From positions 62,001-126,000 of the forward strand of contig KV748283.1 in NCBI GenBank assembly GCA_001692895.1: DNA of 64,000 nt, written 5' to 3'. The translations under genes were made by a program, and so were the position numbers. Below are positions 24,942 through 57,229 of the stretch, piece by piece; position 1 is the first letter of the stretch, and each line of letters begins with the position of its first letter. The notes under the pieces were generated by a model. That model had not been told where the DNA came from and made no database searches. It was given only the letters and a program-made list of their open reading frames with translations. Origin of the DNA: Cenococcum geophilum 1.58. Taxonomy: Eukaryota; Ascomycota; Dothideomycetes; Gloniales; Gloniaceae.

Positions 24942-24964
24942 AACTTTAACCGGCGGTTAAAGTT
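24942..24964. repeat. 23-bp palindrome P1, gypsy-2 copy
   Basis: AACTTTAACCGGCGGTTAAAGTT with symmetric arms, followed by ATCTAATTAGTTAGAT. The same motif occurs near the pol 3' end of three copia elements: 46588-46610, 50529-50551 (reverse) and 57100-57122. Confidence 0.85.
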
Positions 24965-25044
24965 ATCTAATTAGTTAGATCCGCCTTGCCAAAACCTACT
25001 ATAAAGATATTAGTTTTACTTACCGCCTTAACTAAGCCAATAGC

Positions 25045-25071
25045 GATTTTTTATCCCGGGGATAAAAAATC
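25045..25071 (-). repeat. 27-bp palindrome P2, gypsy-2 copy
   Basis: GATTTTTTATCCCGGGGATA flanked on the left by GCCAATAGC and on the right by CTAATTAG. It is the reverse-oriented equivalent of the units at 29292, 46698 and 57203. Confidence 0.8.
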
Positions 25072-25683
25072 CTAATTAGCCTATTTAATAATAGAATTAG
25101 TAAAATTTTATACTGCTACCTAACGCAACTATATAAACGCAATAAGTATTAAGTATTAACTAAATTAAATTATTTGGACCTTTAGCTAAAAGGGGGGGTA
25201 CTATAATAGGACTAGCCCAGTTATAGTAGGAATGCCTTAGTAAAATACTCGATAGATAAATTCTAACGCTTTAACCAAATTTTGCTAGCTTAATTAACTT
25301 CTGCTAAATTTTACTAAATTAATTAAATTCTACTAAAGTCCGTTAAAGACGGCGTGTATATATACGCACGCATTAACCACTAAGCCCCTAACTATTTAAT
25401 TATATAATTCTCTTATTATTCCTTTCTCTTCTTTATATAACGTCTTGTTTTTAATAAGAGCTATATACCCTTAGATTTAGATAGAATTTATATCGTTCCT
25501 TTAAATCTTCCCTAAAGTCTCTTCGCGCCTTTATAATATTGGCCCCTTTAAGGCTATCTAGCGGCTATTTAAGTTCCCTATTTATAATAAGCCCCCCCCT
25601 ATAATCTAGCTTATAGTATACCTTCTAAGTAATTAGTCCGCTAAGGAGATTTAGCAACGCCTTAAGCTCTCCTACTCTTGTCA

Positions 25684-25851
25684 GGAAAAAATTTACCAGC
25701 ATTTATTTTTTACTTTTTAGCCATTATAGCATTTCCTAGCATTTAGTAGCTAAATGCTAAGACTTAATTATAAATGCCGCATTTAGCTACTAAATGCTAG
25801 AAAATGCTAAAATAGCAGAAAAGTAAAATTAAATGCTAGTAAATTTTTTCC
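25684..25851. mobile_element. 168-bp hairpin MITE
   Basis: GGAAAAAATTTACCAGCATT at the left and its inverted copy, ending TAAATTTTTTCC, at the right. The interior is itself palindromic (GCATTTAGTAGCTAAATGC and GCATTTAGCTACTAAATGC), so almost the whole element can fold on itself. The same 21-bp end recurs at 27087-27107 and 33363-33383, the right ends of the two composite elements. Confidence 0.8.
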
Positions 25852-26169
25852 TAATGCATAGAGGCTCCGCACGAAGCTCTGCACGAAGCTCTGCACGAAG
25901 CTCTGCACGAAGCTCTACAAAGCTCTTACACACAGCTCTGCACGAGGCTCTACACGAGGCTTTACATAAAGCTCTGCGTACAGAGGCTCTGCACGAGGCT
26001 CTGCGCGAAGCTCTGCGCGAAGTTCTGCGTACGGAGGCTCTACACGAAGCTTCGCATCGGGTCCCCGCTATATTCCCGATAGCCTCTACACGTGCCTCTG
26101 CCAAGTATACCCCCTATATACACCTAGGTAGCCACCTCAATTTTTACCCTTCCTTACATCCTCCCTACC

Positions 26170-26440
26170 TAGACAGCCAGCAGACGACCGTCGCCGGAGC
26201 CAGACGACCATCGCCGGAGCTAGACGACCGTCGCCGGAGCTAGACGACCGTCGTCAGAGCTAGACGACCGTCGCCGTCGCCAGATGACCGTCGCCAGAGC
26301 TGGACGACCGTCGTCAGCCAGACGACCGTCGCCAGAGCTAGACGACCGTCGCTGTCGCCAGATGACCGTCGTCAGAGCTAGACGACCGTCGTCATCGCCA
26401 GACGACCGTCGCCAGAGCCACACGACCGCTGCTAGAGCCA
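26170..26440. repeat. 20-bp minisatellite (AGACGACCGTCGCCGGAGCT)n
   Basis: About 13 diverged units, GC-rich, with CCGTCG cores. Both strands have open frames of up to about 100 codons made only of repeats. A reduced version is at 32560-32640. Confidence 0.85.
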
Positions 26441-26514
26441 CACGACAACCGTTCAAACGACCAGCCAGCGAACACGATAAACGATTCGATCGATTGATCG
26501 AATTAAGGTGACAT

Positions 26515-26678
26515 AGACAGGTAGGCACAGATAGGTAGGCACAGACGGGTAGGTATAGACAGACAGACAGATAGACAGACAGACAGACAGACAGATAGAT
26601 AGACAGATAGGTAGGTAGGCAAGCAGGCAGGTAGGCAGGCAGGTAGGTAGGCAGGCAGGCAGGCAGGCAGGCAGGTAG
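26515..26678. repeat. Tetranucleotide-type microsatellite (GGTA/GACA/GGCA)
   Basis: Runs of AGGTAGGCAC, then GACAGACA, then GGCAGGCAGG. The matching part of copy 2 at 32880-33060 is (GATA)n. Confidence 0.9.
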
Positions 26679-26874
26679 AAGAGAACCATCGCTATATTAT
26701 ATTAAATTATCTAAAATAATATAATTTATTTTGCACCAACTACGTAAGAAGAGCAATATTTATTGCTTAAAGTAAGTAAAATATATAGAATGTGTAAGAA
26801 GGGCATTATATACAGAATGCGCGAGGAGGGTATTATATATTAATTACGCATTAAGTGTAAAATGCGCAATTAGC

Positions 26875-27005
26875 TGCACTGCATTGTTAAATACGGCAGT
26901 ATGCTGCACTATATTATTAAATATAGCAGTATACTGCACCGCATTATTAAATACGGCAGTATGCGGCAGTATGCTGCACCGCATTGTTAAATACGGCAGT
27001 ATGCC
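26875..27005. repeat. 30-bp tandem repeat
   Basis: About four units of GCACCGCATTGTTAAATACG plus GCAGTATGCT, with RIP-type differences between units. Copy 2 at 33240-33290 keeps a single unit. Confidence 0.8.
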
Positions 27006-27111
27006 GCACCTTAGTCGATACTATACGCTACACGTTGTAGTGCGCGGAATGCGCATTTGGCCGCCAAATGCTGCCAAATGCTGTAAAAATGCTGGTAAAT
27101 TTTTTCCTAAC

Positions 27112-29240
27112 GCTACCTTAACAGCCTTCTTTAAGTATAACGCTAAGTATAAGAATAGCCTTAACTGCCTATATTTAGACTTCCCTAAGTGGTATATCTT
27201 TTATATAAAGCAACGGGAATAGCGTTTACGCTAGTAAGGTACTTAATAGGCCGTATATATTACTGTAGTCTTATTATAAGTAAGAGGTTCTACTTACAGC
27301 TACTACTAATATCCGTTTCCAGCCCTACCTCTTTAAAACCTTCTATACTATTACTAGTATAGTCTATTTAACCTTCTAGGCCGCCTACGCAGCCCTAGGG
27401 CTACTAAAGGATAATTATAAGTAGATTAATTACTTAACGGAGGCCGCCGTTTTTGCTATTAGCGCCTAGATACGCTCCTTATTTATAACCGCTTTACTTT
27501 ATAGCCCTATTACGGAGCTAGTTGCTTTATAGGACCACTTTAAATAGTTTATCTGCGATAACCTGCCTTACTTTCTAGCTTACTAACCTAATGCTTCTTC
27601 TACTGTCGCTAAGGACGATAACGTATATTTTTATTATAGCCTATACCTTATCTATTAGATACTTACGGATTACTAAAAAACGCTTATAGACTATAGCCTA
27701 CCCTAGTTCTAGCACTAGTAGGATGTTATTATGGAGGAAAGTAACTCGCTTTTTATAGCGGAGCTACTATAATACAACCCTATAGAGGAAGAACGCCAGT
27801 TTACTAAGTTACGCTAGCAGCTAAATATAGACTAAGCGGCGTGCTTTAATACTATTGTTAGTACTATAGATATAGATCCATAGACGGCCCGCTTCTTCCT
27901 TTAGGGCCTTATAGATACCGGTAAAACGTTTCTCTATTACTACCTTTACCACTACTATCGCTTGCGCGGTAAGATTGTCCTTTACGTGGCCTTTTCTAGT
28001 ATTGCGGCCCTCTTACTACTTAGCGGCCGTACTACCTACTCTTGTTTTTAGATACCTATTAATCTATATAAGAAGTCTACTTGCAATATCTCTAAAATCT
28101 TAAATCTAGCTAAGCTTCTACACTATACCTCTCTATTTATTTAGGATAAGGTGCTAATATAGTACCACTACTACTTTAAAGCCATATATTATATACTTAC
28201 GGACGTCCGTTTTAATAACTCTACCTTTAGCGGGCTCCCTACTATCTTAGGTAGCGACTTTACTTAAATACTACCTATTATCCCACAGGGAACCACGCAG
28301 CTATTATAGGTGCTTACCTATAGCAGTTATTCCTCTAGCCTACCTTCTATATCCTCTCCTTACGGTTAAATATGCGTGTTCGCTAGGGCGAGATAAACCA
28401 GTAATTTGCCGCTTAGGTGCGAAGCTTATTCTATAATATATCCCTAGCTAGTAGGGTTAGTATTCTACCTAATATAGCCTAGTTCTAGTCCTAAGAATCC
28501 TTCTATAGGTATATATACCCTCCGTATCTACTTACGCGGGTATGCTATAACCTAAATGCCTTCCGCGATCGCGCTATTCTAACTATTTATAATAATACCG
28601 TTGCTAGATTAACGAGGCTATCCTTACGTAGCTCTACGGCTTTTTAGGTACCTTTTATTCTACGGACTCTGTAGAGCAAAATGGAGAAGAGGATTATATA
28701 GAACTGCTGCCAGCGGAGCTCTTATAAACGTTTAACCCCAATAGCCTACCTTTGTTAAAGCTTTCCCTAAAGATAGGCGCACCTATAATCCTTTTACGGA
28801 ACCTCTACCCTAAGGAAGGGCTCTGTAACGGCACCCGTATAGTTATTACGCGCCTAGGCCGGCGTTATATTAAAGCTTAGATGCTTAGCGGCAGTTTTTA
28901 CAGGTATCTGCGGCTAATCCCTCATATTAAGCTTATCTCTACAAATAGAAAACTGCTGTTTATTATTAGTAGAAGCAGTTTCTAATCTAGCTATACTTTA
29001 TTATAACTGTAAACAAGTTACAGGGGTAGTCTTTTAACTTTGTTGGGGTTAATTTGCGTATACTAGTCTTTACACATAGGCAGCTATATATTGCACTATT
29101 AAGAGTAATAGATATACGCGGGCTTTCGCTATTACTGCTGTAAGGAGGCGATGCTACTACTACTAATATTATATATCCGGAGGTGTTGCTAAACTCTAGT
29201 GGGGATAGTATAGCGGCGGTGGCAGCGGCAGCGGTAGGGT
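27112..29240 (+). pseudogene. Helitron-type Pif1-like helicase, C-terminal relic
   Basis: Plus-strand relic of the Pif1-like helicase part of a Rolling-circle (Helitron) RepHel protein. The first recognisable part is TLTAFFKYNAK and LDFPKWYIF (27115-27215), a region found just ahead of the helicase in these proteins. Then come YLTEAAVFAI, a Walker A loop visible as GLIDTGKTFLYYYLYHYYRL (about 27905-27960), AFSSIAALLL and TYSCFQIPINLY. At the end, VFTHRQLYIALLRV and DIRGLSLLLL (about 29060-29130) match the C-terminal motif VI region (QLYVALSRV). The N-terminal Rep domain is absent; the composite element lies at the break. Many stops, and probably several frame changes within 28300-28700. No defined Helitron 5' or 3' end was found. 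Confidence 0.82.
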
Positions 29241-29440
29241 AGTAGTAGGGCAGTAGCAGGGCAGTATTAGGGTAGTAGTGTAACCAATTAGGATTTTCTA
29301 TGCCCGGTATAGAAAATCGCTATTAGCTCGCTTACTACTAGCGCCTTAGCAACCCTCGCGTCCCTTATAAGCTATTACCCTAGCGTAGTAGGGCAGTATT
29401 AGGGCAGTATCAGGGTAGTAATAGGGCAGCAGTAGGGTAG
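29225..29440. repeat. GGGCAGTA minisatellite interrupted by palindromic unit P2
   Basis: Tandem GGGCAGTAGCA/GGGCAGTATTA units run to about 29280 and resume at about 29390. The interruption (29281-29380) is the P2 unit with its flanking sequence, which shows that P2 can be present as a discrete insertion. The first repeats overlap the end of the helicase relic. Confidence 0.75.
29292..29318 (+). repeat. 27-bp palindrome P2, minisatellite copy
   Basis: GATTTTCTATGCCCGGTATA and its complementary arm, preceded by CCAATTAG and followed by GCTATTAGCTCGCTTACTAC. Confidence 0.85.
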
Positions 29441-31627
29441 ACTGAGTTTAGAAGGACAAAAGCCCGCCGTAGGCGCGAGAAATAAGTAAATTTCTCCAAG
29501 GACCAAAATTTTCCTTAGAAAATTGCTTATTTCTTATACTGTAGTACTATACGTAAAAACAGTTCTACCAGTCTAAGGTAAAGGATAGATTTATAGTCCC
29601 TTATATAAGGTAAGGATATAAATAGGGAGCTTAATAATAGAATAATAGAGTATATTATATAAATAGACAAATCCTTAAGGGAAAAGGAGGAGTCTAAAGT
29701 GCAAGGTAAGAAAGGGTTTTCTCTAGGTATATACAGCGTATATACCTTATAGGCAAGTTATATACAAGTCCCCTATACCTCGTAGCTATATAACTATCTA
29801 CTTAGGTTTTACCTAATAATACCTCCCCTTTAAAAAGGATTGTCCCTAATCCTTTATATACTTAGGCCTTAATAAATCTCCTTAAAAAACCTTAATAAGG
29901 AAAAAATTAGAGGGGAAAAAGGGTCCTAATTTTATACACGAAAAGATAGGTATATATATTTCGCCAGTAAGTTATAGGTTATTTATATATAGCTAGACGT
30001 ATAGGCAGTAAGATAATATACCTATTAAATCCGCCGCTAATCCTATACTTTAGCTTTATACTATACCTACGAGTATATATATAGAGATTCCACCAAATTC
30101 TACTAATTGTGTGTACTTTACTAGTATAAGAAATATTCTAAAAGTTTACGTATATAAGTAGGTCGCTAATATCTCGCGGGTAGATTATAGATTATTTAAG
30201 TATAGCTAGACTTATAGATAGTAAGGCGGTATGCCCAATAACCGCCGCTAACTCTATACTTTAGCTTTACGCTATTTACGTAGTATATATATAGAATAGT
30301 ATATAAGTCGTTAGTATAGGTCATTATTAATAGGTTAAAGAACCCTAGTTATAAATAAATAGATATAGAATAATATATATAAGTTATTAGTAAAGATTAC
30401 TACTAGTAAGTTATAGATTATAAACCCTAATTAAAGGGCTCTAGTTATAAACGGGCCTATTACCTAATATATAAACAGTCTACTAAAATAGTATAGAGTA
30501 ATAAACTAGGTCTAGTAAGAGTGCTTTTAATTACTTTAAGATTACTAGTAATACCCTATAGCCCTACCTATAAATCGCTAGCATAGCTAGGCTACGTTAG
30601 AGTGTGGCTTATATAGAATATTAATAAATTAAGCTTTGCCCTATATATATACCATAACTCTTACTATAAGCGTTAGCTTATTCCTTAATCCCTTAGGATA
30701 TCCTTTACCTTTCTTTAATATAGGCTATATCTTAGTAGCAGCGATTACCTTTTACTTACGCTTTAGCTACGAGGCTAGGTAGTAGTATACTAGCTTTATA
30801 AAACGGTCTATAAGAATAAGGAGGTATTTTAAACTTAGGGAGATCCGTAATAAAGTTAAGTAAATAATACTATAAGGCTTAAGTAGGAGCCTATAAGAGG
30901 CTATAGCTTACCATAAGGTATATAGCGGCGCAATTTAGAGCATTAGTAGGGATTATAGTTACCTAGGTATTTATAGAGATCCTTATTAAGGCTAAACCTT
31001 ATTATTTTACCTTAGGTGTCTTTAATTATATTACTAGTATAGGAGGGTACGACCACTCTTAGATGGGAAGTCACGGTGCTAGTAGTCTATCAGTTAGTCG
31101 GTTATAATTAGTTAGAAGTAATTAGTAAAGCAGTTAGTAAAAAAAGAAGTAAAGAATATGTTTCCAGTAACTGGTAGGGTTGTAATCTTTAAGAAAGAGG
31201 GAAGCGGAAGGCTCCATAAATATAGGAAAATGCTAAGGTACTAGGCGTAAGCCATTTTACCCCACTACGCTAATAGGAACTCGCCCCTAGGTTAGCTAAT
31301 CGCGTATAGAGTATAAGGTGTCCCCTATACTCTATAGACGGAATAAACTAATAACTTAAGGATATACTCTATAAAAGCTGTTTAAGCTAAAGTAGCTACT
31401 ACTACTACTTACTATAGTATAAGGCTCTGCGTAAAGCTAGTACTAGTAAAGTAATATATAATATATAGGTCACTTATATAGTTATTATAGGGGACTGTTA
31501 TCTAGGCTAGGGGTTTTCCCCTAGGGTCTAACGCTATTAGGCTAGTTAAAGTCTTAATAAAAATAGTAGGACACTCTAGTCCGCTAACGCTAGATTATTA
31601 GTATAGTATAGTATAGGTATAGATATA
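29441..31627. other. RIP-altered unclassified repeat region
   Basis: No gene identified. It contains a strong hairpin at 29479-29533 (GAAATAAGTAAATTTCTCC and complementary arm), a purine/pyrimidine run near 29822 followed on the minus strand by TATTATTAGG that could be an LTR start, and two ~120-bp direct copies (29963-30082 and 30176-30297, sharing GCCGCTAA...TATACTTTAGCTTTA). A TATAGAGTATA/TATACTCTATA stem lies near 31313-31345. On the minus strand 30500-31000 has a coding look, but no domain could be assigned. Confidence 0.45.
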
Positions 31628-31910
31628 GTTAGGTCGCGATACGCCTATATAAGATATATATTTAGAGGTATATAATATCTAAGCCTCCTATTTATCTAAC
31701 GTTAGGTTATAATACTCCTATATAAAGTATATATTTAAAGTATATAGTATCCTAGTCTTCTTTCTCTAACGTTAAGTCGCGATGCGCTTACGTATAATAT
31801 ACGTTTAAGGTATACGGTATCCTCGTCTTCTTTCTATCTAATATTAGGTCGCGATAAGCCTATATAAGGTATATATTTAGGATATATAGTATTATAGTCT
31901 CCTTCCTAAT
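31628..31910. repeat. ~71-bp tandem array (four units), split by an insertion
   Basis: Units starting GTTAGGTCGCGATACGCC at 31628, 31700, 31770 and 31842, so periods of 70-72 bp. The fifth unit (GTTAGGTTGCGATATATC) lies at 33388, displaced by the composite element 31911-33383. This gives a clean before/after picture of that insertion. Confidence 0.85.
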
Positions 31911-32963
31911 GCAGAGGCTCCGCATAAAGTTCTGCACGAAGTTCTACACAAAGTTCCGCACGAAGTTCCGTACGAAGCTCTGCATAAAGCTCTGCACAAA
32001 GCTCTATACAAAGCTCTATATATAGAGGCTCTGCATAAAGCTTTACGCGAAACTCTACGTACGGAGGCTCTGCGTTGGGTCCCCGCTATATATAAAAGGC
32101 CAGCCTGACCGGAACGTATGATTATCCAATCGACAGTGTCACCGGTAAGTAGAAGGTAAGTCGAAGGTACGTCGAAGGTAAGTAGAAGGTAAGTTAAAGG
32201 TATAATAAGTTTCTCGTATTGAAGGACAAATGCTTTTGACCACTTCTATTTAGAGACTAATCGCTGGTTCTTCTCTAGAGGAGAACCAGCTCCCTATATA
32301 ATCCTTCTAAGACGCTAGCAAAACCCTTTGCCCCTTATCTATCTGACCATGTCTTCTAGGACGTAGATAGAACATAGATAAGACCTCCTTCTGTCTCATC
32401 TAATATATACCTTCTAGGGAATTCCGTTACACTATATTCCTAATAGCCTCTATATATACCTCTGCTAAGTATACCCCTATATACCCACCTTATTTTTTAC
32501 CCTTCCTTCCTTTCTTACATCCTCCCTACCTAGGAAGGCACTAGAACGGTAGCTAGTAGAGGACTATTGCTAGAACTAGACGATCGTCGCCAGAACTAGA
32601 CAACCGTTGCTAGAACTAGACAACTACCGTTTAAACGACTAGCCAGCGAACGCCGCGAACGATTTAATTAATCAATCGATTGAATTAAACTAGAGCTTTA
32701 ATATTGGCCCATTGCCAAATTAAATCAAGGCCTCCTAGGGAGGCACCCTAGACAATTACCGTTTAAATATACAGCCAGCGAACGGCCGTAGAGAACGATT
32801 TAAATTAATACAATTAATCGATTAATTAAATTAGGCAGAGCCTTTAATCGGGCCGGCCCTTCCCCTAAATTACAAACAGGTAAGTATAAATAGGTAGGTA
32901 TAAACAGGTAGGCATAAACGGTAGGCATAGATGGTAGTTATAGATAGGTAGGTATAGGTAGGT

Positions 32964-33012
<49 letters not shown>

Positions 33013-33383
33013 CAGATAGGTAAGTAGATAGGTAGGTCAGTAGGTAGGTTAGTAAGTAAGTCGTTATATTATATTAAATTATCTAAAATAATATAATTTA
33101 TTTTACACTAACCGTATAGACTAAATAAATACTATTAAGTGTATAGGATAAGTAATTAATAATAAATGCGTAGGAAGAGCAAGATATATAGAATATATAA
33201 GAAGGGCATTATATATTAATTGCGCATTAAGTGCAAAATGCGCAATTAGCTGCACCGCATTATTAACTACAGCAGTATGCCGTATCTTAGCCAATACTAT
33301 ACACTACACGTTATAGTACGCGGAATGCGCATTTAGCCGCTAAATGCTGCCAATTGCTGTAAAAATGCTGGTAAATTTTTTCC
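31911..33383 (+). mobile_element. Composite minisatellite-rich element, copy 2
   Basis: About 1.47 kb, with the same modules in the same order as copy 1: the 12-bp minisatellite (31912-32078), GGGTCCCCGCTATAT, CTCCCTACCTAG, a reduced 20-bp repeat, a (GATA)n microsatellite (32930-33012), an AT block, AATGCGCAATTAGCTGCACC, and the end AATGCTGGTAAATTTTTTCC. It is inserted in the 71-bp tandem array: the left junction reads CCTAATG and the right CCTAACG, consistent with a 5-9 bp target duplication after one C-to-T change. No coding capacity. A unique ~350-bp block (32090-32440) is absent from copy 1. Confidence 0.78.
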
Positions 33384-33387
33384 TAAC

Positions 33388-33450
33388 GTTAGGTTGCGAT
33401 ATATCTATATATTATATACGTTTAGGGGTATATAGTATTCTAGTCCTAAA
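33388..33450. repeat. Fifth unit of the ~71-bp tandem array
   Basis: Continues the array of 31628-31910 immediately after the composite element. Confidence 0.8.
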
Positions 33451-36640: not shown

Positions 36641-39600
36641 GGGGTCCGCCACCTATCCATTATATAGTATAACTGCGGCAATATAAACCACCGCCTTATA
36701 AGGCCCCTACTAGATAGTCTAGACCTAGAGAAATACTATATCCTTACTATATAAGAGCCGTATTATAATACCTTTATATAATTAATATACTGCCCCTAAG
36801 GATTCTAGCTCCTATATAAACCAAAAGCAGCCACATATATATGCTTTATAATTAGTAAGGCTATCAGCCTATTCTTATAGTTATAGCAGGTAGTTAACCT
36901 AGATATTATAGTTATAATAATCTAAATATATAGGGGACCAGTACAAATTATTAATGTGTATAACCCTAGGGTTAAAGGGGTCCTATAAATAGAGAATATT
37001 ATATTGGCAATAAGCTTACTAGAAACCGAAGGTATAGAGTCTATCCTATTAGGAGATATAAACCTCTACCACCTACGGTAGGGGGGTATCTATATTGCTG
37101 CAGATTAATAATTAGAGTGCCTACTAAGAGCTATAGATATCTAGGGCCTTAAGCTAGCTACCCCCCTAGGAGCAATTATATGGTAATAAGGCACTACCAG
37201 AAGTATAATTAACCTTACATTTATGGACGAAGGCCTATATTAGAGACTTAAAAGGTACAACCCTAAAGAAGAATAGGCACTTACCCTAAACTATATCCCT
37301 ATCTAGATATAGCTAGACCTAGATACCAAAGCGCAACTAAATAGAAAAAGATACGCAATAAGGAAGCTTAAGATAGATAGTTTCTTTAATACAGTTAAAC
37401 AATAACTCTAAGACCTAGAAGAAATCTACCTAATACCAAATAAGCAAGGCTTATTGGCCACCCCTAAGGAAATTAACCGAAGACTAGAAAGGATCTAGGC
37501 AGCAATTAAAAATAGGCTAGAAGAGTACTACCCAATCTTAAAACCGGGCCCCTACGCGCGATACGCATAGTCTATATAATGCGCAGTTCTGGTTACCAGC
37601 TAATAATAAGTAAAAAGGAAATATATAAGCAGCTATAACCCTAAAGACAAGAGATAATACAAAGATATAAGAAACCAGCTAAAGAATACCCTAAAAAAAG
37701 AAGTAAGGAATAACTAGAGACGGTTTATAAACGAGTATACTTTTAACCTAAGCCTCCCCCATAATAAGGGCCTTTAGGCTATAGCAAAATGGGTAAAGAA
37801 AAAGGCAGGGCGCTTAGTAGAAGACCTATACCTACTACCCCTATAAAGAGCAAGAGAATTATAGGCCATAAATAACAACAATAAGAAGGCAAAGATCCTT
37901 ATAGAAAGGTTCTTCCCCTAACCAGCTCTAGCAGACCTTAGTAATATCACAGGCGAAACACCGGTGACTTACCTGCGGGTCAACAGCGACATAACAATAG
38001 AGGAAATGGCTAGAACCATTAGCCGCCTTTTAAACAATACAGCACTAGGACTAGATAGGATTTCAAATAAGGCCCTAAAAACCTGTGGGCCACTTATAGC
38101 ACCTTAGCTTATAGATATAGCTAGAGCATACTTTACTATAGGCTACTACCCACGACTTAGAAGATCTATAACGACAGTTATCCTACGAAAAGAAGGTAAA
38201 GCAGATTACTTAATCCCAGGAAGCTACCGCCCTATTGCCTTAAAAAACACCCTTAGCAAGATCTTAGAAAGGGTAATAGCGAAACATATAGCAGATACGG
38301 TAGAGGAACACGCCCTACTACCATAAAGCTAAATAGGGGCAAGAAAGAACCGCTCAACACTATTAGCACTTACGCTACTCGCTGCCACCATTAAATCTGC
38401 ATAGGCGATGCAAAAGGACTTCGTAGTATTAATGCTTAGCCTAGATATTAGTGGTGCCTACAACAATATACCCCATAAGCGTCTCCTATATATCCTTAGG
38501 GCAAAGGGCTTCTTAGAATAGATTATATAATTTATCTAAGGGTTTATAGGCTAGAAAGAAATATTACTAGTCTTTAGCGGATACTAGAGCCCCCCTATTA
38601 CAGTTACAACAGGAATACTACAAGGATTACCCCTCTCGCCTATACTCTTCCTTTTCTTTATAAGCAACCTACTTAACTCCTTTAAGAAAGGGGCGACCTA
38701 GGGGATAGGCTTTATTAACGACACAAACCTAATTATATACGGGCTAACAGCTGCAGAGAATTACAGAATACTAGAGAAAGCCTATAACACTTATATAGAA
38801 TGGGTAAGATATTATAAAGTCTAATTCTCACCAGAGAAATACCAGCTAATCTATTTTATAAGAAAACGCAACTAATCTACAGATCTTTAGTATATAATTC
38901 GCATTTAAGGCTTTAGGGGTTAACTAGTTTAGGGCCTAAGGGTACTAGGAGTATGGGTAAATAGCAAGCTCTGGTGGAGCGTATATATAGCGCAAGCGGC
39001 CTATAAAGGCCAAGCACAGTTCATCGCTTTATCTAGGATTGTTAATTCTATATAGGGTCCATACTTCCAGAGGTCACGCCTACTATATATAGCAGTTGTC
39101 TGGCCAACTATAACATATAGATCTAGTATTTGGGCCATTAAAGAAACTGAGAAGGGCCCCCTAAAATTACTCCTTAAACCACTTTAAAAGGTCTAAATAA
39201 CCTGCCTCTAGAGTATTACAGGCGGGTATAAGCGAACGGCTATAGCACTGCTTGAGAAGGAATCTAATATTCCCCCCCTACAGTTATATATTAAAGCCGC
39301 TGCAATATAAAGAACGCAAAATAAATATAACTCTAATGTTATAAAGTACATTAAGACACGCCTAAGTAAACTATAGAGGGACCCTAGGGTGCCCCGTAGG
39401 AGAATAAACCAATAACCCTAAAGTAGGGAAGAGATATTAGAGAAACAGGTAAAGAAAGCAGAAGAAGAATAATGTTGCTTTAGGGCCTAGGCCTATATAG
39501 AGGAGAAAGGGAGACGCGTAAGAGGTTAGCAAAGATAATAGTAAGATAGAGAAAGGAGCTAAAGTAGAATATATAAGAACGCCGGGAAACCATCTACTGT

Positions 39601-40976: not shown

Positions 40977-41142
40977 TGTCGGGAATGAGGCAAGCGGTCG
41001 TCACGTGACGCCGCGGCACTAGCGTGGCGAGGAGTCTTAAGCTCCTTACCCTTCCTCATTCTAATAAACAAGCTTTATTAACCAACATTACTGTAACCTA
41101 CTCGAGTAGTTATTATTGGTAAGTCACCCTATGTAACTAACA
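40977..41142 (+). repeat. 5' LTR of copia-1
   Basis: 166 bp, TGTCGGGAATGAGGCAAGCG to AACTAACA. It contains the GC-rich core GCCGCGGCACTAGCGTGGCG. Confidence 0.92.
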
Positions 41143-44100: not shown

Positions 44101-46587
44101 CCTAGGACCCCCTAATTAAATTATCTATAATATAAAAAAGAACTTCTTATCTATAGAGTTTTAATAATAGATAAAGGTAATAGTAATTAAGGTTAAGGAA
44201 GTTCCTATTAAGGTATATAATAGCGTTAGAAAAGTGGAGTAATATTATACGCTATTACGCCGCGTATATAAGATTATCTCTTTAGAACTAGAGAACGCTA
44301 GCGAAAAACTTACCTTATAAATAGCTATTAAAGCTATTAATAATTCCGCTAGCCTAGATAGACTTATACCCATATTACTAGTCTTTAGCGCCTACCCTTA
44401 AATAACTAACAATTCTCTACCGTCTCCCTTTATTATATAATAAGCTAAGGCTATTTATAAGGTAATAAAGGAGGTGTAACGTCTCTACGCTATATACTAG
44501 GTTAACAACGCACTAGAAATAAGAAATGGCCTAAATACCTTAACTATACTTAACCTACTACTTTAGTCTAAGGTACGCGTATAGCGTAAAAAGGGAGGAT
44601 ATTTAGGCCTATATTAACTTATTATAATTAATAGTTAAACTTATACTATTTAGATGCCTTACAGACCTACTTAATTCCGTTTAACTGTTATTAAGCCTTA
44701 TTATAAAGATAATAGTTTTAAGCCTTTGCAGGATGCTATAGAAGATACCCTAAAGAAGAGCCGCGATTAACGTGCTCTAAAAGGCGACTATAATTCTAAT
44801 ATAATTATAGTAGATATGCCGCAACTATAACGCGGTAAAGGTCGCCTAAAGGGATTATAAAATTGCTAACATCTTATTAATTTTAAAGAGCAATTCATTA
44901 CCGCTATTAAGAATGGAGTTAAGCTATTAATAGCCTTTATAACAGCTAAGGAAAAGGCTAACTTTAAACTCGCAAAATAGCTTTAAAAGAAAGGTTGTAT
45001 TATAACTTTAAGAGCTCCTTTCTAAGTATCTAGTAAGTAAGAGATTAATAGTCTTATTATAAGAGGAGTCTTTAAGTTTAAGAAGTATAACCCTACTAAG
45101 TTTAATAAAGTTCGTATCTTTAAGTTAAGAATGGTTAATAAGATTAAAGGTAAAGCTACTAACGCCCTATTTAAGAAATTAAGGCTTATTATCTAAGGTT
45201 ATAATAATAATAGTAAGGAGGTAATTTTTATGTAATTTCCTATAATTTAACGAGCTAGTTAGCAAGTTATTGTTGCGCTAGCTCCCTCCTTAATAAAAAA
45301 TAGAATGGCGGTTTATTTATAAAATATTACTTAAGCCTATACCTAATTAGAGATGCACCTTTAGCGCTTAATATTAGCATACCTTCCAGAGCAAATTTGC
45401 TACTAGTATCCTAAAGATATAATTATAGTTATGCTTAAGCCATTATATAGAATCGTAAAGGTAGGAATTTACTAGTAGGCTACCTATAGTAAGCACTATA
45501 AAGAGAAGCTTTTAATAACTACTTTTATATTCAACCCTTACTTCCTTATTATAACTATAAAAACTCTATTTAGAATCGTTGGCATATAAACTAATAATAT
45601 AATTATCTTAGGAAATAACTAGTTCTTAGCTCTTAAAGAAAATAAGCTAGTAAAGGTAAATCTTATAGCAAAGCCAAAGAAAAAGCTTAATTTAATAACA
45701 CTATTACTCTTTAATAGATATACCCTTTCCCTAAATAAGGATTCTATTACTTTACGCCAGAAGGGTTAAGGTAAGAAGATTAATATTATTAACGTTAATT
45801 CTCTAAAGTAAAGATATATAGAGTAACGCGCTTATAAAGCTTATATTACTTTTATTTATTAACCTAAGGCTTTATTTAATCTCTTTATTACTACTTAACA
45901 CTAGAAACTAACTAAGGATAACGTTCTTACCCTAAATAAGCGTCTTTCCTAGTAAATAAACTATCTTAATTAGGGACTACTTTATATACCTATTAATCTT
46001 CCTACCGCTAAGCTCTTTATATTTATTAATAGATTATTTATAAATAATAAAGATTTTAGCTTCTAGCTAGAATATAAGATTATTATCATAAATAAATCTA
46101 TTAAAGAGAATGACTTTATAATCTATAGTAATCTTATCTATTAGAGCTTAACTAAGAGTAAACGCGTTATTTAAAGCGTTTTAGCGTTAGAGATATATAG
46201 AATGGTTAGCAGAGTTAATATAGCAATTATAATTGGAACTACCTTAAAGATAATTATAGATCGACTCGAACTTCCTATTATCCCTATAATTATATGCACT
46301 AACTTATATTCCTTTTATAAGTATTTAGTTAAGCTTAGTACTATAAAGGAGAAGCGTATTATAATTAATATTATAGCACTTTAGCAATCCTATAAGCATT
46401 AAGAACTCTTTAAATTTTAATAAATTAATAGCTAAGATAACCTAGTAGATATAATAATAAAGGCGAACCTAAATAAGGCACTAGAGACGTTTATTAACAT
46501 AAATACTCTATATATATAAGTTAAAGGTTAGGTTAAAAGGGAGTCTTTAGAAATTTCTTAGTTACGTAAGGTCTTAAAATATCTAGG

Positions 46588-46610
46588 AACTTTAACCAGC
46601 GGTTAAAGTT
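46588..46610. repeat. 23-bp palindrome P1, copia-1 copy
   Basis: AACTTTAACCAGCGGTTAAA plus GTT. One centre mismatch relative to the gypsy-2 copy. Confidence 0.85.
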
Positions 46611-46697
46611 ATTTAATTAGTTAGATTCTCTTATTAAGACTTTTTTAAAGGGGGGAGTATAATATTCTGTAAACCCTAATTCCAACTAGCTAATTAG

Positions 46698-46724
46698 GAT
46701 TTTCCATCCCTAAGATAGAAAATT
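46698..46724 (+). repeat. 27-bp palindrome P2, copia-1 copy
   Basis: GATTTTCCATCCCTAAGATA and complementary arm, preceded by CTAATTAG and followed by GCTATTGGCTTGCTTATAAC. Confidence 0.85.
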
Positions 46725-46937
46725 GCTATTGGCTTGCTTATAACTAGCGCCTTAGCGGCCCTAATATAATATCCACCTATAACTCCTAAGTAAGAAAGCA
46801 CTACGTGCTAAGAGGCAAATTTTAGGATAGTAAGACTTATATTATAATGGCAATAGTAAGTAAGGAGGATTGATATTTGTTATGCTAGTTAAGCAGTATT
46901 TATATCTAGGTGGCAACTATAAAAGAAGAGTTGCTAG

Positions 46938-47103
46938 TGTTGGGAATGAGGCAAGCGGTCGTTACGTGACGCCGCGGCACTAGTGTGGCGAGGAGTCTTA
47001 AGCTCCTCGCCCTTCCTCATTTTAATAAACAAGCTTTATTAACCAACATCACTGTAACCTACTCGAGTAGTCGTTATTGGTAAGTCACCCTGTGTGACCA
47101 ATA
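46938..47103 (+). repeat. 3' LTR of copia-1
   Basis: 166 bp, TGTTGGGAATGAGGCAAGCG to GACCAATA. Same length as its partner. Confidence 0.92.
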
Positions 47104-47790: not shown

Positions 47791-47792
47791 TA

Positions 47793-49179: not shown

Positions 49180-49181
49180 TA

Positions 49182-50198: not shown

Positions 50199-50414
50199 CT
50201 GGCAACTCTTTTTTTGCGGTTGCCATTTATATATATATACCGCTTAACTAGCATAATAAACATTAATCCTCCTTACTTACTATTACCATTATAATATAAG
50301 TCTCGCTATCCTAAAATTTGCCTCTTAGCACGTAGTACTTTCTTACTTAGGAGTTATAGGTAGATATCTTGTTTAGAGGGCCGCTAAGGCGCTAATAGTA
50401 AGCGAGCCAATAGC

Positions 50415-50441
50415 GATTTTCTATCCTAGGGATGGAAAATC
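50415..50441 (-). repeat. 27-bp palindrome P2, copia-3 copy
   Basis: GATTTTCTATCCTAGGGATG and arm; flanks GCCGCTAAGGCGCTAATAGT to the left and CTAATTAA to the right. Confidence 0.85.
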
Positions 50442-50528
50442 CTAATTAACTAGGTTAAGTTAGGGTCTATAAAATGTTATACTCCCCCCTCCTAAAAAGT
50501 CTTAATAAGAGAATCTAACTAATTAGAT

Positions 50529-50551
50529 AACTTTAACTACCGGTTAAAGTT
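50529..50551. repeat. 23-bp palindrome P1, copia-3 copy
   Basis: AACTTTAACTACCGGTTAAA plus GTT, in reverse orientation relative to copia-1. Confidence 0.8.
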
Positions 50552-51354
50552 CCTAGATATCTTAAGACCTTATATAACTAAGAAATTTCTAGGGACTCCC
50601 TTTTAACTTAACCTTTAACTTATATATATAGAGTATTTATATTAATAAACGTTTCTAATGCCTTATTTAGGTTTGCCTTTGTTATTATATCTACTAGGTT
50701 ATCTTAACTATTAATCTATTAAATTTTAAAGAGTTTTTAACGCTTATAGGATTGCTAAAGTGCCATAATATTAATTATAAGGCGCTTTTCCTTTATAATA
50801 CTAAGCTTAACTAAACACTTATAAAGGGAATATAAGTTAGTATATATAATTATAGGAATAATAAAAAGTTCGAGTTAATCTATAATTATCTTTAGGGTAG
50901 TTCTAATTATAATTACTATATTAACTCCGCTAACTATTTTATATATCTCTAACGCTAAAATACTTTAGGTAATATGCTTGCTTTTAATTAAGCTCTAATA
51001 AATAAGATTGCTATAGATTATAAAGTTATTCTCTCTAGTAAATTTATTTATAATAATAATTTTATATCCTAACTAGGAGCTAAAATCTTTATTATTTATA
51101 AATAATCTATTAATAAATATAAAGAGCTTAGCAGTAGGAAGATTAATAGGCATATAAAGTAGTCCCTAATTAAGATAGTTTATTTACTAAAAAAGACGCT
51201 TATTTAGGGCAAGAATATTATTCTTAGTTAGTTCCTAGTATTAAGCTATAATAGAGAGATTAAATAAAGCCTTGGGTTAATAGATAAAAGTAATATAAGC
51301 TCTATAAGTACGTTACTCCATATATTCTTACTTTAGAGAATTAATATTAATAAC

Positions 51355-51540
51355 TGTCGGGAATAAGGCAAGTTGCCGTCGCATAAAGCATATTGCCGTC
51401 ACGTATCGACGTGGCCCTAGCGTGGTGAGGAACCTTAAGTTCCTTACCCCTTTCCTCATTCCTATTAATAAGAATTAACCAACATCACTATAACCCTACT
51501 TAAGTAGTTGTTATTAGTGAGTCACTCTATATTTCTAACA
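51355..51540 (+). repeat. 5' LTR of copia-2
   Basis: 186 bp, TGTCGGGAATAAGGCAAGTT to TTTCTAACA. Confidence 0.92.
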
Positions 51541-54500
51541 CTAATTAGTAGTTAAATACACAGTCAACTATAGAGCAGCTAGGTTTTCGAATAGAAGAGA
51601 CAGTCTCGTATAGGGGTGCCATATGCGCTTATATGGAATGGATCCCAGCGATACTGTGCTACCTTAGACTTGCGGAAAACTAGTAATAAAAGTGTCACTA
51701 AGTACTAGGAGATACTAAGTTGCGTTTATTACGCAGAACAACCACGTTTATAAAGATTTGGTTAAGTACTTTAGGTCAGAAGTATTACTAAACCTACGGT
51801 CCCAAAATCAATGTCCAAAACGCGTTAAACAACTACGCATATAAAGATTTGGTCGAGTACTTTAGGTTAGAAGTATTACTAAACCTACGGTCCTAAAGTC
51901 AACGTCTAAAACGCATTAACAACATCTTAATTACCTACCTTTTAACAGCAAACCTACGAGATTCTATAAAGCCAAAAACCCTACCTACCTTTAACGTACG
52001 ACACCCCGTTAATTTTATACCTACTATGGCATTAACCTACCTAAAGAAGTACGAGAAAAGCATTAACCTAGAGACGTGGGATATAGACATTAACCCTATA
52101 AACGCTAAGGAACAGGACCTAAACGGATTCTTAGTATACCGCATAGTATACTATACAGATAGCGAATATAACGATACTAAGCTATAGTGTTATATAAAGG
52201 AGGACTTTATTAGATAGATAAAGGAAATATAGGCTCTTATGAAGAAGGACATTATATAAGACTTCCGTAACTTCCTTTAGGAGAATAGAGTATTTGTCCC
52301 TATAGATAGGGGTACCATTAAAGATAATATCCAGGAGTAAGTTATTAACGCAAAAGAAGAGCATAAATGGACTCTATAAGAGGTTAAGCACCAACTATAT
52401 ACTAAGAGAAAGCTTAACTTATAATAGAATCTAAACGATACGCTAATAAAGACGCGCTCTAATTCCATTGCTTTAGGCACAAGTTCTTATATTTTATATC
52501 CATCGCTTCTACCTCTATCTCTAGCTCCCTAGGATCCACTAATTTAACTAGTAATGTTAACTACTACCCCTTAAGAGCAAGCGCAAGATCCCCTTACTTC
52601 GCGATTTAATAACCTTTAAACTCTACTATAGGAAGATTAGGTACTACGCCGTGTTTTACTAAGCCCTATATCTCTACTACAGCCTATAAAGTAATCCCTA
52701 CCTTAATCTCTAATGCAATTTTAATGTAGTTTAATACTACTTGGAGGTACCTTAAAAATGCTTATAGAGCTTATAAAGCTCTATACGGACTAGGAGAAGA
52801 AGTTTAGTAGGGAACTATATAACATCCTTAATTCGAAGCTGCGTATCTTCTATAACTATTACTAGAAGGTTAGACTAGAACCTAACTAATATTATAACGC
52901 CTATTCCGTTATGCTTAAGGGCCGCACCAGTACCTTTTATTATAATCGTTTAGTAGAAAAAGAATATAATTTTAACCGAATAATATATAAGATAAGATAC
53001 CACTTTAAAATAGAAGAGAATAAGTAGTAATATATATCGGAGTAAAGAGAGACTACCTTCTTAAGAATTATTACTATAAACCTAGGTATCTCTTAGCTTA
53101 ATTGTCTTTAAAAGCTCTTTAATTAACTTTAGATAATTTAGCATAGTTTATCTGAATTATATTAAGAGGACCTTAGCCTATATAATTAAGTTATTAGCGT
53201 ATGCTAAGGTATTAAAGAATGCAATCTCGCTCTCTTTAACCCTATAAGTACTTATGAAGGAGTATATGCTTAATTAAGATCCTCTATTAGCACCGCTCTA
53301 CGCTCTTAAGAAGTATAGCAATTTAACGCTTAACTCTAACCTACCTTGATTAACCTAGCCGACTAATATAATTATAACTAGACTAATTAAATATATAGTG
53401 GACGTGGTAGGGGATATAGTAAAGGGTATAATTAATGTTAACTATAAGGCAATTATAGAGGTCCTTATGGAGGTTCACTTTGGAGCGATTATTAGAAGAA
53501 GTGCTACGTTTATAAGAAGCCAAATTACTAGTTAACTAGACACCCTCTTAATAGACGAAAGGAGGTATATAATAGGTTTCGCCAGAGCGTATGAAACGTT
53601 GGAAACTAAGAGGTTACTATAGCCTACTTTTAAAACTTCCTAGTTTAATATAAAGGCGAAGAAGATCTTAAGGGTAAGGTTAATGAGGCCGAACAGCTCC
53701 TTATGGATATAGAAATTAAGGACTACTCTCCTAACTAATACTTTACTAAGTATAGTAAGGTAAATAGTATATAAACCGTCGCTATCCTTAATAACTAATC
53801 TACGCTCTATTCTATTATAAAGTTAAATATCTTTAATAAGCTAAAGGAAAGTTCTGCGTTCTTCTTTAATAATAGATACTCAGTGAACGTCTTTTATGGC
53901 ATTATACCAGATACTAGAGCCGCAGGAGTATCTATAGTAGGAGAGCCTTAAGTTTAAGCTCTTTAGCAGCTTAATAGCTCTGTTTAAATTAACTAATTAA
54001 TAGTAGGCCAATATATAATTTGCTTTAGCAAGGGTACTATAATCTCTCTTAGTATAATTAAGGTCTAAACCCTATTAGGATATATTACTTTCTATATTAT
54101 CCCTATAAACACCCTATTCCTATTCTGCATTTAAGATATAAATAAATTAGGTATTAAGCTTAATAACCTTAAGAATATACTTATTTAGGGAGATAATTAG
54201 GTGCCCGTTATACGCAAGTAGGGTTACCCTTAGTTGCTTCTTTAATAGCTAGAAAGGAGTATTATTTAAAGCCACCTAACCGAGTTAGAGTTACGTTAAC
54301 TATACCGTTGTTTTAGCCACCTATCTGTTTACTAATTACTTAGGGTTCTTTAGCGAGTAGGTTATAAAGTTAAGGTTAAGGTAATTAAACATCTTATAAA
54401 GTACTACTACCACTACTAAATAAACTAGAAGTCCCCTAGCCGATTTAAGTTTACTCTTAAAGATAACTATAACTTCAACTTCTGCATTATTATGGATATT

Positions 54501-57099
54501 ATATATCTTAGCGGTAAGCCAGTACTCTAAGTTATTGACTTCTTAACCTCCTTCTAAGCTATACGCTTTTTAAAAGATATATTAGCTAGGAACGTATAGG
54601 ATACTCTTTAATTATGCTAAATTAATATCTACCTAGGACCCCCTAATTAAATCGTTTATAATATAGGAAAGAACTTCTTATCTATAGAGTTTTAATAATA
54701 GGTAAAGGCAATAATAATTAAGGTTAAGGAAGTCCCCGTTAAGGCATATAATAGTATTAAAAAAGTAGAACGATATTATACGCCATTACGCCGCGTATAT
54801 AAGATTATTTTTTTAAAACTAGAGAATGCTAGCGAAGAGCTTATCCTATAGATGGCTATTAAGGCTATTAATGATACCGCTAGCCTAAATAGGCTCATAC
54901 CTACGTTGCTAGTCTTTAGCGCCTACCCTTAAATAACTAACAATTCTCTACTATCTCCCTCTATTGCGTAATAAGCTAAGGCTATTCGCAAGGTAATGAA
55001 GGAGGTGCGACGTCTTTACGCTATACGCTAGGTTAACAACGCACTAGGAATAAGAAATGGCCTAAATACCTTAACTATACTTAATCTGCCACTCTAATCG
55101 GAGGTACGCGTATGGCGTAAAAAAGGAGGATGGTTAGGCCTATATAAACTTATTGTAATTAATAGTTAAACTTATACTCTTTAGATGCCCTATAGACCTA
55201 CTTAATTCCACTTAACTATTATTAAGCCCTACTATAGGGATAATAGCTCTAAGCCTTTATAGGATACCCTAAAGGATACCCCAGAGGAGAACTACAATTA
55301 ACGTACTTTAGAAGGCGAAGGCGATTCTAATATAATTATAGTAGACGTACTATAACTATAACGCGGTAGAGGTCGCCTAAAGGGATTATAAAATCGCCAA
55401 CATTTTATTAATTTTAAAGAGTAATTTGTTACCGCTATTGAGAATAGAGATAAACTATTAATAGCCTTTATAACAGCTAAAGAGAAGGCTAACTTTAAAC
55501 TTATAAAATAGCTCTAAAAGGAAGGCCGTATTATAACTTTAGGAGCTCCTTTTTAAGTATCTAATAAGTAGGAAATTAACGGTCTTATTATAAGAGAAGT
55601 CTTTAAATTTAAGAAATATGACCCTACTAAGTTCAATAGAGTCCGCATATTTAAGTTAAGAATAGTTAATAAGATTAAAGGTAAAGCTACTAATACCCCA
55701 TTTAAGAAGTTAAGGCTAGTTATTTAAGGTTATAATAATAACGGTAAGGAAGTAATTCTTATATAATCCCCTATGATTTAATAAGCTAGTTAATGAGTTA
55801 TTATTACACTAGCTTCCTCCTTAATAAAGAATAGGATGGCGGTTTACCTATAAGATATCACTTAGGCCTATACCTAATTAGAGACGTGCCTTTAGCGCTT
55901 AATACTAGCATACCTTCTAGAGCAAATTCGCCACTAATATCCCGAGGATACGATTATAGTCGTACTTAAGCCATTATATAGAATTGCAGAGGTAGAAACT
56001 CATTAGTGGGCTACCTATAGCAAGCACTATAAGGAGAAGCTTTTGATAACTACTTTTACATTTAATCCCTGCTTCCTTATTACAACTACGGGAACTCTAT
56101 TTAGAATTATCGGCATATAAATGGACGATATAATTATCTTAGGAGACGACCAATTCTTAGCTCTTAAAGAAGATAAGCTAGTAAAGGTAAACCTTATAGT
56201 AAAGCCAAAGGAAAGACTTAACTTAGCAACACTATTACTCTTTAATAGATATATCCTCTCCCTAAACAAGAGCTCCATTGCTTTACGCTAGAAGGGTTAA
56301 GGCAAGAAGATTAACGTTATTAACGTTAATTCTCTAAAGTAAGGATACGTAAAGTAACGCGCTTGCGGAGCTTATATAGCTTCTATCTATTAACCTAAGG
56401 CTTCCTTTAATCTCTTTATTGCCGCTTAATACTAGGAACTAACTAAGGATAACGTTCTTACCCTAAATAAGCGTCTTTTTTAGTAAATAAACCATCTTAA
56501 TAGGGGACTACTCTATGTGCCTATTAACCTTCCTACCGCTAAGCTCTTCGTATTTATTAATAGATCGTTTATAAATAATAAAGATTTTAGCTCCTAGCTA
56601 GGATATAAGATTATTATNNNNAACGAATCTACNGGAGAGAATNACTTTATAATCTANNGCAANNTTATCTATTNGAGCTTAACTAAGAGTAAGCGCGTTA
56701 CTTAAAGCGTTCTAGCGTTAGAGATATATAGAATAGTTAGCGGAGTTAATATGGCAATTGCAATTAGAACTACCCTTAAGATAATTATAGACCGGCTTAA
56801 ACTTCCTATTATCCCTATAATCGTATACACTAACTTATATTCCCTTTATAAGTATTTAGTTAAGCTTAGTACTATAAAGGAGAAGCGTCTTATAATTAAT
56901 ATTATAGTACTTTAGTAGTCCTATAAGCGTTAAAAACTCTTTAAAATCCGATGGATTAATGGCTAAGATAACCTAGTAGATATAATAATGAAGGCAAACC
57001 TAAATAAGGCACTAGAGACGTTTATTAATATAAATACTCTACATATACGAGTTAAAGGTTAGGTTAAGAGGGAAATTTAGAGAAGTTAAGATCTTATAG

Positions 57100-57122
57100 A
57101 ACTTTAACCGCCGGTTAAAGTT
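57100..57122. repeat. 23-bp palindrome P1, copia-2 copy
   Basis: AACTTTAACCGCCGGTTAAA plus GTT, followed by ATCTAATTGGTTAGAT. Confidence 0.85.
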
Positions 57123-57202
57123 ATCTAATTGGTTAGATTTTTACTAAGAGCGCTGCGCCTAATTAATTTAGGTGGCGGTGTAGACTTTTACTAACTAATT
57201 AG

Positions 57203-57229
57203 GATTTTCTATGCCCGGCATGGAAAATC
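57203..57229 (+). repeat. 27-bp palindrome P2, copia-2 copy
   Basis: GATTTTCTATGCCCGGCATG and arm, one position short of perfect symmetry. Followed by GCCATTAGCTCGCTTACTAC and GTCTTAGCGGCC. Confidence 0.87.

Follow-up and report, generated by a model that had tools for sequence, protein, structure and literature searches.

A 27-bp palindrome, here called P2 (GATTTTC-N13-GAAAATC), recurs in copia and gypsy retrotransposons and in a minisatellite within a 64,000-bp stretch of the genome of the ascomycete Cenococcum geophilum 1.58 (assembly GCA_001692895.1, contig KV748283.1, positions 62,001 to 126,000; hereafter the window). We propose, with a probability of roughly 0.4, that P2 may be the core of a regulatory cassette of long terminal repeat (LTR) retrotransposons, composed of CCAAT boxes plus the palindrome, which would have been exchanged between superfamilies by recombination and would not be a 70-bp transposon. 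An earlier note on the window had described a recurrent unit of about 70 bp around P2, and had offered a tiny mobile unit, an RNA 3′-end hairpin or a recombination site as its nature. All five palindromes that it reported are present with the flanks it described, and the copy at 25045 is reversed, as it had claimed. In the following list, RIP stands for repeat-induced point mutation and UTR for untranslated region; P1 is a second palindrome described below, and the C/G and G/C types refer to palindrome positions 11 and 17.

25045 to 25071, minus strand: P2 in a gypsy tail and opposite to P1, its arms both bearing RIP-type changes
29292 to 29318, plus strand: P2 in a minisatellite
46698 to 46724, plus strand: P2 of the C/G type in the 3′UTR of a GalEa-type copia element, 213 bp upstream of the 3′ LTR
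50415 to 50441, minus strand: P2 of the C/G type in a reversed copia tail
57203 to 57229, plus strand: P2 of the G/C type in the 3′UTR of a GalEa-type copia element, 180 bp upstream of the 3′ LTR

The available part of a published account gives this genome as 177.57 Mb, with GalEa copia elements at 10.4%, and describes it as 'probably' subject to a RIP-like process (PMC5445492). In the 177.19 Mb of RIP-mutated sequence searched here, the 27-base pattern with up to three mismatches was found at 3,394 places, compared with none for its reversed control, and a looser arm pattern at 2,014 places, compared with 265 in the reversed control. Exact P2 matches were absent from the bacterial and archaeal species genomes of GTDB and from the IMG/VR viral contigs. 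No report of the motif was found in the open-access literature, which was covered in part, and this is weak evidence of novelty. To characterize the surroundings of P2 we used 46 of the 50 listed places matching the loose pattern, all on contig 1 and selected on the palindrome only, and each copy was turned to whichever orientation gave the better fit at +1 to +10 (negative numbers denote the left flank and positive numbers the right). Given that the outer arms (GATTTTC and GAAAATC) were required by the search, only the flanks and the inner 13 positions are informative. The recurrent flanks of the proposed 70-bp unit were borne out, but the unit is not minimal: the part common to the 46 copies extends from about −10 to +12 (+16 with one free position), and its CTTAC..AGCGCCTTAGCGGCC part is lacking in some P2 contexts and is found elsewhere without the palindrome.

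Part of the evidence for our proposal is the immediate context of the palindrome. The left neighbour of P2 was RRCYAAT in 45 of the 46 copies, and the right neighbour was the inverse of this motif in all 46; CCAAT itself was intact on the left in 23 copies and on the right in 13. At greater length, the left flank reads RRCYAATYA(G/C), with T in place of G/C in one copy, and the right flank reads GCYATTRGCT, with single exceptions at +1 (A) and +9 (T). No transversion occurred at −10, −9, −7 to −2, +1 to +12, +14 or +16, and one occurred at −8. The C/T and G/A differences lie mostly at CpA or TpG steps, which is the RIP pattern, except at −10/−9, where all four purine pairs were seen as RR permits (AA 21, AG 17, GG 4 and GA 4). 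In copies little hit by RIP the left flank is AGCCAATCAG (e.g. L058), with S-R after CCAAT; the S position is T in most copies, which we attribute to RIP. The consensus of the CCAAT-binding factor NF-Y is given as RRCCAATSR in the accessible text of one study (PMC11802806), and both flanks of P2 fit it in opposite orientations when RIP is allowed for. To judge from these patterns, P2 is flanked by two predicted inverted CCAAT boxes, mostly in RIP form, and we infer that CTAATTAG in P2 is mostly the RIP form of CCAATCAG. In a set of 98 copies, which were found with a flank mask so that only the fall-off beyond it is informative, agreement dropped to near random leftward and more slowly rightward. 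The two boxes, which the earlier note had missed, point to regulation at the DNA level; such boxes typically lie 60–100 bp from the start site (PMC6652802, available part). Around the copy at 57203 they are as follows.

57193 to 57202, plus strand: left CCAAT box in RIP form (AACTAATTAG)
57230 to 57239, minus strand: right inverted CCAAT box in RIP form (GCCATTAGCT on the plus strand)

A second palindrome, P1, has 23 bp (AACTTTAACCGNCGGTTAAAGTT) and is likewise found in copia and gypsy tails; with up to two mismatches it occurs at 3,188 places genome-wide, compared with 1 in the control. P1 adjoins RRCYAAT in 30 of 31 copies, although these were oriented by part of the CCAAT box itself, and the CCAAT is intact in six. 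Among 58 copies of P2, 23 have P1 within 500 bp (17 in the same orientation, 5 both ways and 1 opposite), counts to be read with the facts that the loci often end about 490 bp away and that P1 is itself palindromic. In the 17 copies with the same orientation P1 lies 71–121 bp upstream of P2. The window contains four P1 copies.

24942 to 24964, plus strand: P1 (AACTTTAACCGGCGGTTAAAGTT) and an adjacent RIP-form CCAAT box
46588 to 46610, plus strand: P1, 110 bp upstream of P2
50529 to 50551, minus strand: P1
57100 to 57122, plus strand: P1, 103 bp upstream of P2

The hosts of P2 belong to several superfamilies. By eye, the 46 copies form about 13 flank groups, namely GalEa-type copia 3′UTRs (groups A, J and N, about 13 copies), gypsy F (about 8), gypsy G (4), the gypsy LTR D (3), another copia M (2), a 4.9-kb repeat B (1), with the other 15 copies in groups H, I, K, L and O (element not named). 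These groups are not cleanly independent, since neighbours share short homologies so that clusters merge: single-linkage clustering of the 98 copies gave five left clusters, with 88 copies in one, and three right clusters, with 79 in one. Typing by tblastn with two query sets, together with Pfam, assigned groups C, F and G to gypsy and M to copia. Pfam returned a domain above cut-off for two of 20 open reading frame fragments from P2 loci, and none in the plus frames of window positions 43000 to 46500; we think that the poor Pfam coverage of the window is due to RIP. The orientation of P2 also differs among hosts. Gypsy pol lies in sense with P2 at L001, L002, L008 and L025, whereas P2 is antisense at L075, where a strong RT-RNaseH domain lies upstream, at L078, where copia RVT_2 lies upstream, and, by eye, in an inverted GalEa-tail group (L108, L110 and L123). 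In the gypsy tail at 25045 the Tf2-1-like SH3 matches are all below threshold (best 25.5 bits, cut-off 30); L075, with its strong RT-RNaseH domain, is a relative from the same flank group. As for the three copia tails that had been proposed, those at 46698 and 57203 lie in elements with paired LTRs, while 50415 is a reversed tail of like kind.

40977 to 47103, plus strand: GalEa-type copia with the 46698 copy, LTRs at 40977–41142 and 46938–47103
51355 to 57595, plus strand: GalEa-type copia with the 57203 copy, LTRs at 51355–51540 and 57410–57595

In both elements the 5′ LTR ends with a ACTAATTAGT site (at 41142 and 51540), of a type that the available part of the literature describes at the end of the GalEa 5′ LTR (PMC5445492). 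The outcome that the earlier note had named as refuting its unit, namely confinement to a single retrotransposon lineage, was not obtained, as copia, gypsy and a helicase-bearing repeat are all hosts.

Two further observations concern these hosts. One P2 copy (L054:488) has a left flank of the gypsy-LTR type and a right flank of the copia-tail type, and is likely a recombinant. Repeat family B is 4.88 kb long (L009:690 to L083:2583) and has fixed ends (TCTATCTATCG .. GACGCTAGTATAT), with P2 about 800 bp from one end; it starts with TC after A in 12 of the 13 copies that show the boundary (17 listed), it has CTAG near the end in 3 of 3, and Pfam found no domain in it. The terminal hairpin of a Helitron was considered as the nature of P2, but P2 lies about 800 bp inside repeat B, a repeat devoid of Pfam hits, and the idea was set aside. 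An introner-like intron and a SINE or tRNA origin were also weighed, by their motifs alone.

The palindrome is an optional part of otherwise homologous LTRs. The L008 locus has a 235-bp segment with P2 at 48 bp from its start. A purine tract precedes this segment, which is taken as an LTR from its LTR-like ends and homology; most other contexts share with it only positions of about 38–85 or about 38–114. In the MAFFT alignment, a P2-less homologue showed a gap of 32 columns, corresponding to AATCAG plus the palindrome minus its last base. The stretches concerned, together with a segment called ext1, are as follows.

62995 to 63204, minus strand: P2-less LTR-like homologue, which keeps ATTGG, ext1, a TATA-like stretch and a pyrimidine tract but lacks the 32-bp block
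8850 to 9042, plus strand: related LTR-like stretch (TGTGACGG..CCGTCACA) that has neither P2 nor ext1
57240 to 57265, plus strand: ext1 segment (CGCTTACTACTAGCGTCTTAGCGGCC), found in most but not all contexts

All 40 scored copies of the P2-less stretch were near full length (window copy included; best 40 of 1,186 candidates), and another P2-less LTR with ATTGG or GTTGG plus ext1 was found at L109, L117 and L001. The ext1 pattern occurs at 1,125 places (556 and 569 by strand), compared with none in the control; among 20 further ext1 loci outside the exact-P2 list, 18 have P2, exact or mutated, and two are the P2-less LTR. The existence of P2-less relatives of several kinds suggests that P2 may have been gained rather than lost. 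In the alignment of empty and filled sites, which the earlier note had advised, the 32-bp block is optional in homologous LTRs and no target duplication was visible by eye. The stretch at 8850–9042 is a more distant relative of the P2-bearing gypsy LTRs, with seemingly little RIP and with a purine-rich stretch before it.

If P2 is a regulatory cassette, the 27-bp palindrome would bind a dimeric factor beside the fungal CCAAT-binding complex, and the whole could act as an enhancer or promoter element. In one gypsy LTR type, the cassette would lie in U3, upstream of the TATA-like stretch and/or the pyrimidine tract. An LTR/3′-tail module would have passed among gypsy, copia and the helicase repeat by recombination of elements (template switching or nested insertion), and would then have been copied along with each host. 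Such a reading is favoured by the presence of ATTGG in homologous LTRs without P2, where it starts 38 bp before TATATA (our own count, window 62995–63204), by the occurrence of this box beside P1 as well, a palindrome unrelated to P2, and by the differing positions and orientations of P2 among its hosts, as an enhancer allows.

Several points weigh against it. A pyrimidine run of at least 12 within 180 bp downstream was found for 6 of the 46 copies (upstream 0 of 46), compared with 38 of 920 shuffles, and purine runs were found downstream of 8 of 46; therefore most contexts show no evident core promoter. Only 3 of the 46 copies belong, by eye, to the gypsy C/D LTR type, and placement in a copia 3′UTR is odd for a promoter. 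The CCAAT motif was recognised post hoc, and the flanks of P1 and P2 may share descent; the 31 copies of P1 represent a small number of host groups (GalEa and gypsy F/G by eye) and are not an independent test. A palindrome of 27 bp is long for a single factor, and we know of no cognate factor for it. Inverted symmetry partly exceeds CCAAT, to about ±16 (returning at 12, 14, 15 and 16), and the mismatches at −2/+2 and −9/+9 are reversible by single transitions, as would also be expected of a decayed stem. Two narrower ideas were set aside: a promoter signature downstream of all P2 copies was unsupported, being found for 6 of 46, and the HapX-type bipartite spacing was a misfit by eye.

The earlier note had claimed that the arms co-vary despite RIP, and this proved true only of positions 11 and 17, which are complementary at 1,419 of 1,420 places with exact surroundings. 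With transitions pooled, C..G was found at 731 places and G..C at 688, and one pair was non-complementary. The claim failed for positions 8 and 20, a RIP site on each arm, where changes on one arm are independent of those on the other (98 copies, Fisher p 0.26), and the TTTTTT/AAAAAA example amounts to C→T and G→A changes on both arms. Both 11/17 types occur within flank groups A (14, 3), D (2, 1), H (1, 5), I (5, 3), M (1, 1) and P (1, 2), the only groups used, as the automatic flank signatures are crude and mix F, G and J; one of the five in H (L050) is doubtful. Therefore, either positions 11 and 17 have switched together several times, or whole palindromes have been exchanged. Beyond the 27 bp, the bases at −4 to −8 are complementary to those at +4 to +8 (with RIP allowed for at −7/+7 and one exception at −8/+8), whereas those at −3/+3 are never complementary, all 46 copies have A:C at −2/+2, and 24 of the 46 have A:C at −9/+9, where the A opposite C is by context not a CpA (RIP) step.

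The complementarity at 11/17 counts for the regulatory cassette and equally for the main rival explanation, which we consider unlikely: that P2, with P1, folds in retrotransposon RNA as a hairpin close to the 3′ end, with a part in export, packaging, dimerisation or priming, and has been copied among elements sharing one machinery. The complementarity at 11/17 and some of the outer symmetry to ±16 would be explained in this way, a strong hairpin was predicted in all four folded copies (z −2.2 to −4.2), and the locations in the 3′UTR or U3 of several copia and gypsy groups, as well as the 17 of 58 copies that have a like-oriented P1 71–121 bp upstream, fit such a role. An RNA hairpin would however be expected on the sense strand, whereas P2 is antisense to pol in gypsy L075, copia L078 and, by eye, the inverted GalEa-tail group, and is opposite to P1 in the group of the 25045 copy. 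Moreover, −3/+3 never pairs, −9/+9 fails in 24 of 46 copies, and no Rfam match reached the gathering score in the whole window. It is the antisense host groups together with the unpaired outer positions that make us disfavour an RNA 3′-end role.

A different view would take P1 and P2 as a class of gene-less nuclear palindromic cassettes, not bound to any one host in their spread through copia, gypsy and PIF1-helicase repeats. Each would carry a CCAAT box along or come to lie next to one, and the arms would be kept matched by arm-to-arm copying so that both switch together. We hold this to be a rather poor prospect.

Whether P2 moves by itself can be considered from the minisatellite copy, which lies at the end of a repeat encoding a PIF1-like helicase.

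27818 to 28300, plus strand: PIF1-like helicase domain (PF05970, 1.1e-29, X at stops)
28716 to 28856, plus strand: Pif1 2B domain in another frame of the same repeat (PF21530, 1.6e-14, X at stops)
29280 to 29382, plus strand: minisatellite insert of about 103 bp with P2 and ext1 inside, which starts (T)GTAACC and ends TTATAAGCTATTACCCTA, the junctions being uncertain by a few bases

With a query made of the repeat end and the minisatellite (best 40 of 2,621 candidates scored), three copies ran through the insert (the window, C26:520949 and C17:1065190), 26 stopped at query positions 326–333, a few bases from its left edge (331), and 11 stopped earlier. Among the 26, C55:58352 has a longer minisatellite, after which it reaches the insert; C30:23563 passes directly from query position 330 to 436 and looks like an empty site, and in a further six copies the sequence matched next consists of minisatellite alone. 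The minisatellite sequence makes this comparison of filled and empty sites ambiguous, and GTAGTAG, found on both sides of the insert, may itself be minisatellite sequence. The end of the insert, TTATAAGC..TTAC, resembles a gypsy LTR end (L034, TTTATATAAGCCGTTATA), and its start is TGTAAC; given these LTR-like ends, we read it as probably an internally deleted LTR. The earlier description of this copy as a discrete insertion is supported in that the family has copies with and without the insert of about 103 bp, but what was inserted resembles a deleted LTR.

We consider it improbable that P2 is a tiny mobile palindrome that inserts itself into repeats as a non-autonomous unit of about 32 bp (flanks included, about 103 bp). 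The 32-column gap, equal to the palindrome plus AATCAG less one base, would suit such a unit, as would the 40 of 40 P2-less LTR copies and the 26 of 40 helicase-repeat copies that stop near the left edge of the insert, against three that run through. But the 32-bp block shows no visible target duplication, a parent element was not found, the contexts share 20–150 bp outside the block, one left-flank cluster takes in 88 of the 98 copies and one right-flank cluster 79, and the minisatellite insert resembles an LTR fragment. The boundaries of P2 also differ, being those of a 32-bp block in LTRs and of an insert of about 103 bp in the PIF1 family. Among the natures first proposed for P2, its optional presence agrees with a mobile unit, but a self-moving 70-bp unit fits worse than transfer of a module by LTR recombination, which better suits the LTR-like insert, the 20–150 bp shared beyond the palindrome and the absence of a visible target duplication for the 32-bp block.

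Around this copy, the PIF1-helicase repeat family (window 27110–29280) has at least 40 copies, ends in a GGGCAGTA-like minisatellite and is possibly Helitron-like; a Rep domain was not found in the plus frames of window 25300–33300, the minus frames there not having been searched. Arrays of tandem 8- and 12-bp repeats (GCTCTGCACGAAG-like) are present in two similar copies at 25922–26690 and 31964–33066. A 20-bp array adjoins the first, and non-tandem sequence is common after both.

It is still less probable that P2 is functionless, that is, an old LTR segment carried by recombination that looks conserved through recent bulk spread. Its copies do lie in RIP-mutated repeats, and ext1 and the left flanks show common descent, but the 46 copies have no transversions at nearly all of −10 to −2, the arms (except 11/17) and +1 to +12, while positions slightly further out on the left are near random, and 11 and 17 change together. 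That P2 is a recombination or template-switch site driving the tail exchanges is very improbable: differing left and right flank clusters do join at P2 (L0 with R0, R1 and R2) and gypsy groups F and G differ, by eye, in the orientation of the P2 segment with respect to P1, but exchange points lie outside P2 as well, cause and consequence are not separated by these data, and we know of no recombinase for it.

Apart from P2, window positions 36653 to 39157 hold a reverse-transcriptase region with 73% protein identity over 538 amino acids to a stop-free RVT_1 locus in another part of the genome (L095), and which appears to be LINE-like (related to long interspersed nuclear elements).

If our proposal of a shared regulatory cassette is true, then competing retrotransposon superfamilies of one genome share a transferable regulatory cassette, and one host regulator could switch many unrelated elements simultaneously. 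It would also provide a concrete sequence with which to test the expression of this fungus's large repeat load, and a handle for tracing copia-gypsy recombination at the RNA or DNA level. The paired state of positions 11 and 17, with one intermediate in 1,420 places, would be a clean case for studying how palindromes remain perfect.

Comparable systems differ from P2 in several respects. CORE-SINE-type central domains and the viral s2m are short conserved segments common to otherwise unrelated mobile or viral genomes; those, however, are parts of short interspersed nuclear elements or of RNA viruses, whereas P2 is palindromic, occurs in LTR elements and is found in both orientations. The GC clusters of yeast mitochondria, among other dispersed short palindromes, are optional short palindromic blocks, organellar and GC-rich and, to our knowledge, without CCAAT boxes, whereas P2 is nuclear and tied to LTR modules. 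For the joining of parts of different LTR elements, a route has been proposed in the complex LTR retrotransposons of Triticeae, which would arise via template switching (PMC1950507); the abstract of that study names no palindromic cassettes, unlike the case of P2.

LTRs regulated by NF-Y are closer. Human ERV9/LTR12 carries an NF-Y site whose distance to the first TATA box is fixed at 37 nt (PMC5085097), so that, as far as the accessible portions of these studies describe, the likeness consists of CCAAT boxes within an LTR and of a similar distance, 37 nt to TATA compared with about 38 in the P2-less LTR here (PMC5085097, PMC11802806). Binding was measured there, whereas here two predicted, inverted boxes lie around a 27-bp palindrome and are common to copia, gypsy and the helicase repeat. 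The nearest published system that we found is the GalEa Conserved Hairpin Site (CHS), which has hosts in common with P2 (PMC5445492). According to the available part of its description, the CHS is a short palindromic or hairpin motif, and within each of five species distant element families have a longer conserved stretch in common (PMC5445492). A CHS-like site also follows the 5′ LTRs here. The CHS of GalEa comes directly after the 5′ LTR, whereas in the two elements measured P2 precedes the 3′ LTR by 180 and 213 bp. As far as the CHS is described there, P2 further differs in occurring in 3′UTRs, LTRs and other repeats of several superfamilies, and in having a different sequence apart from CTAATTAG.

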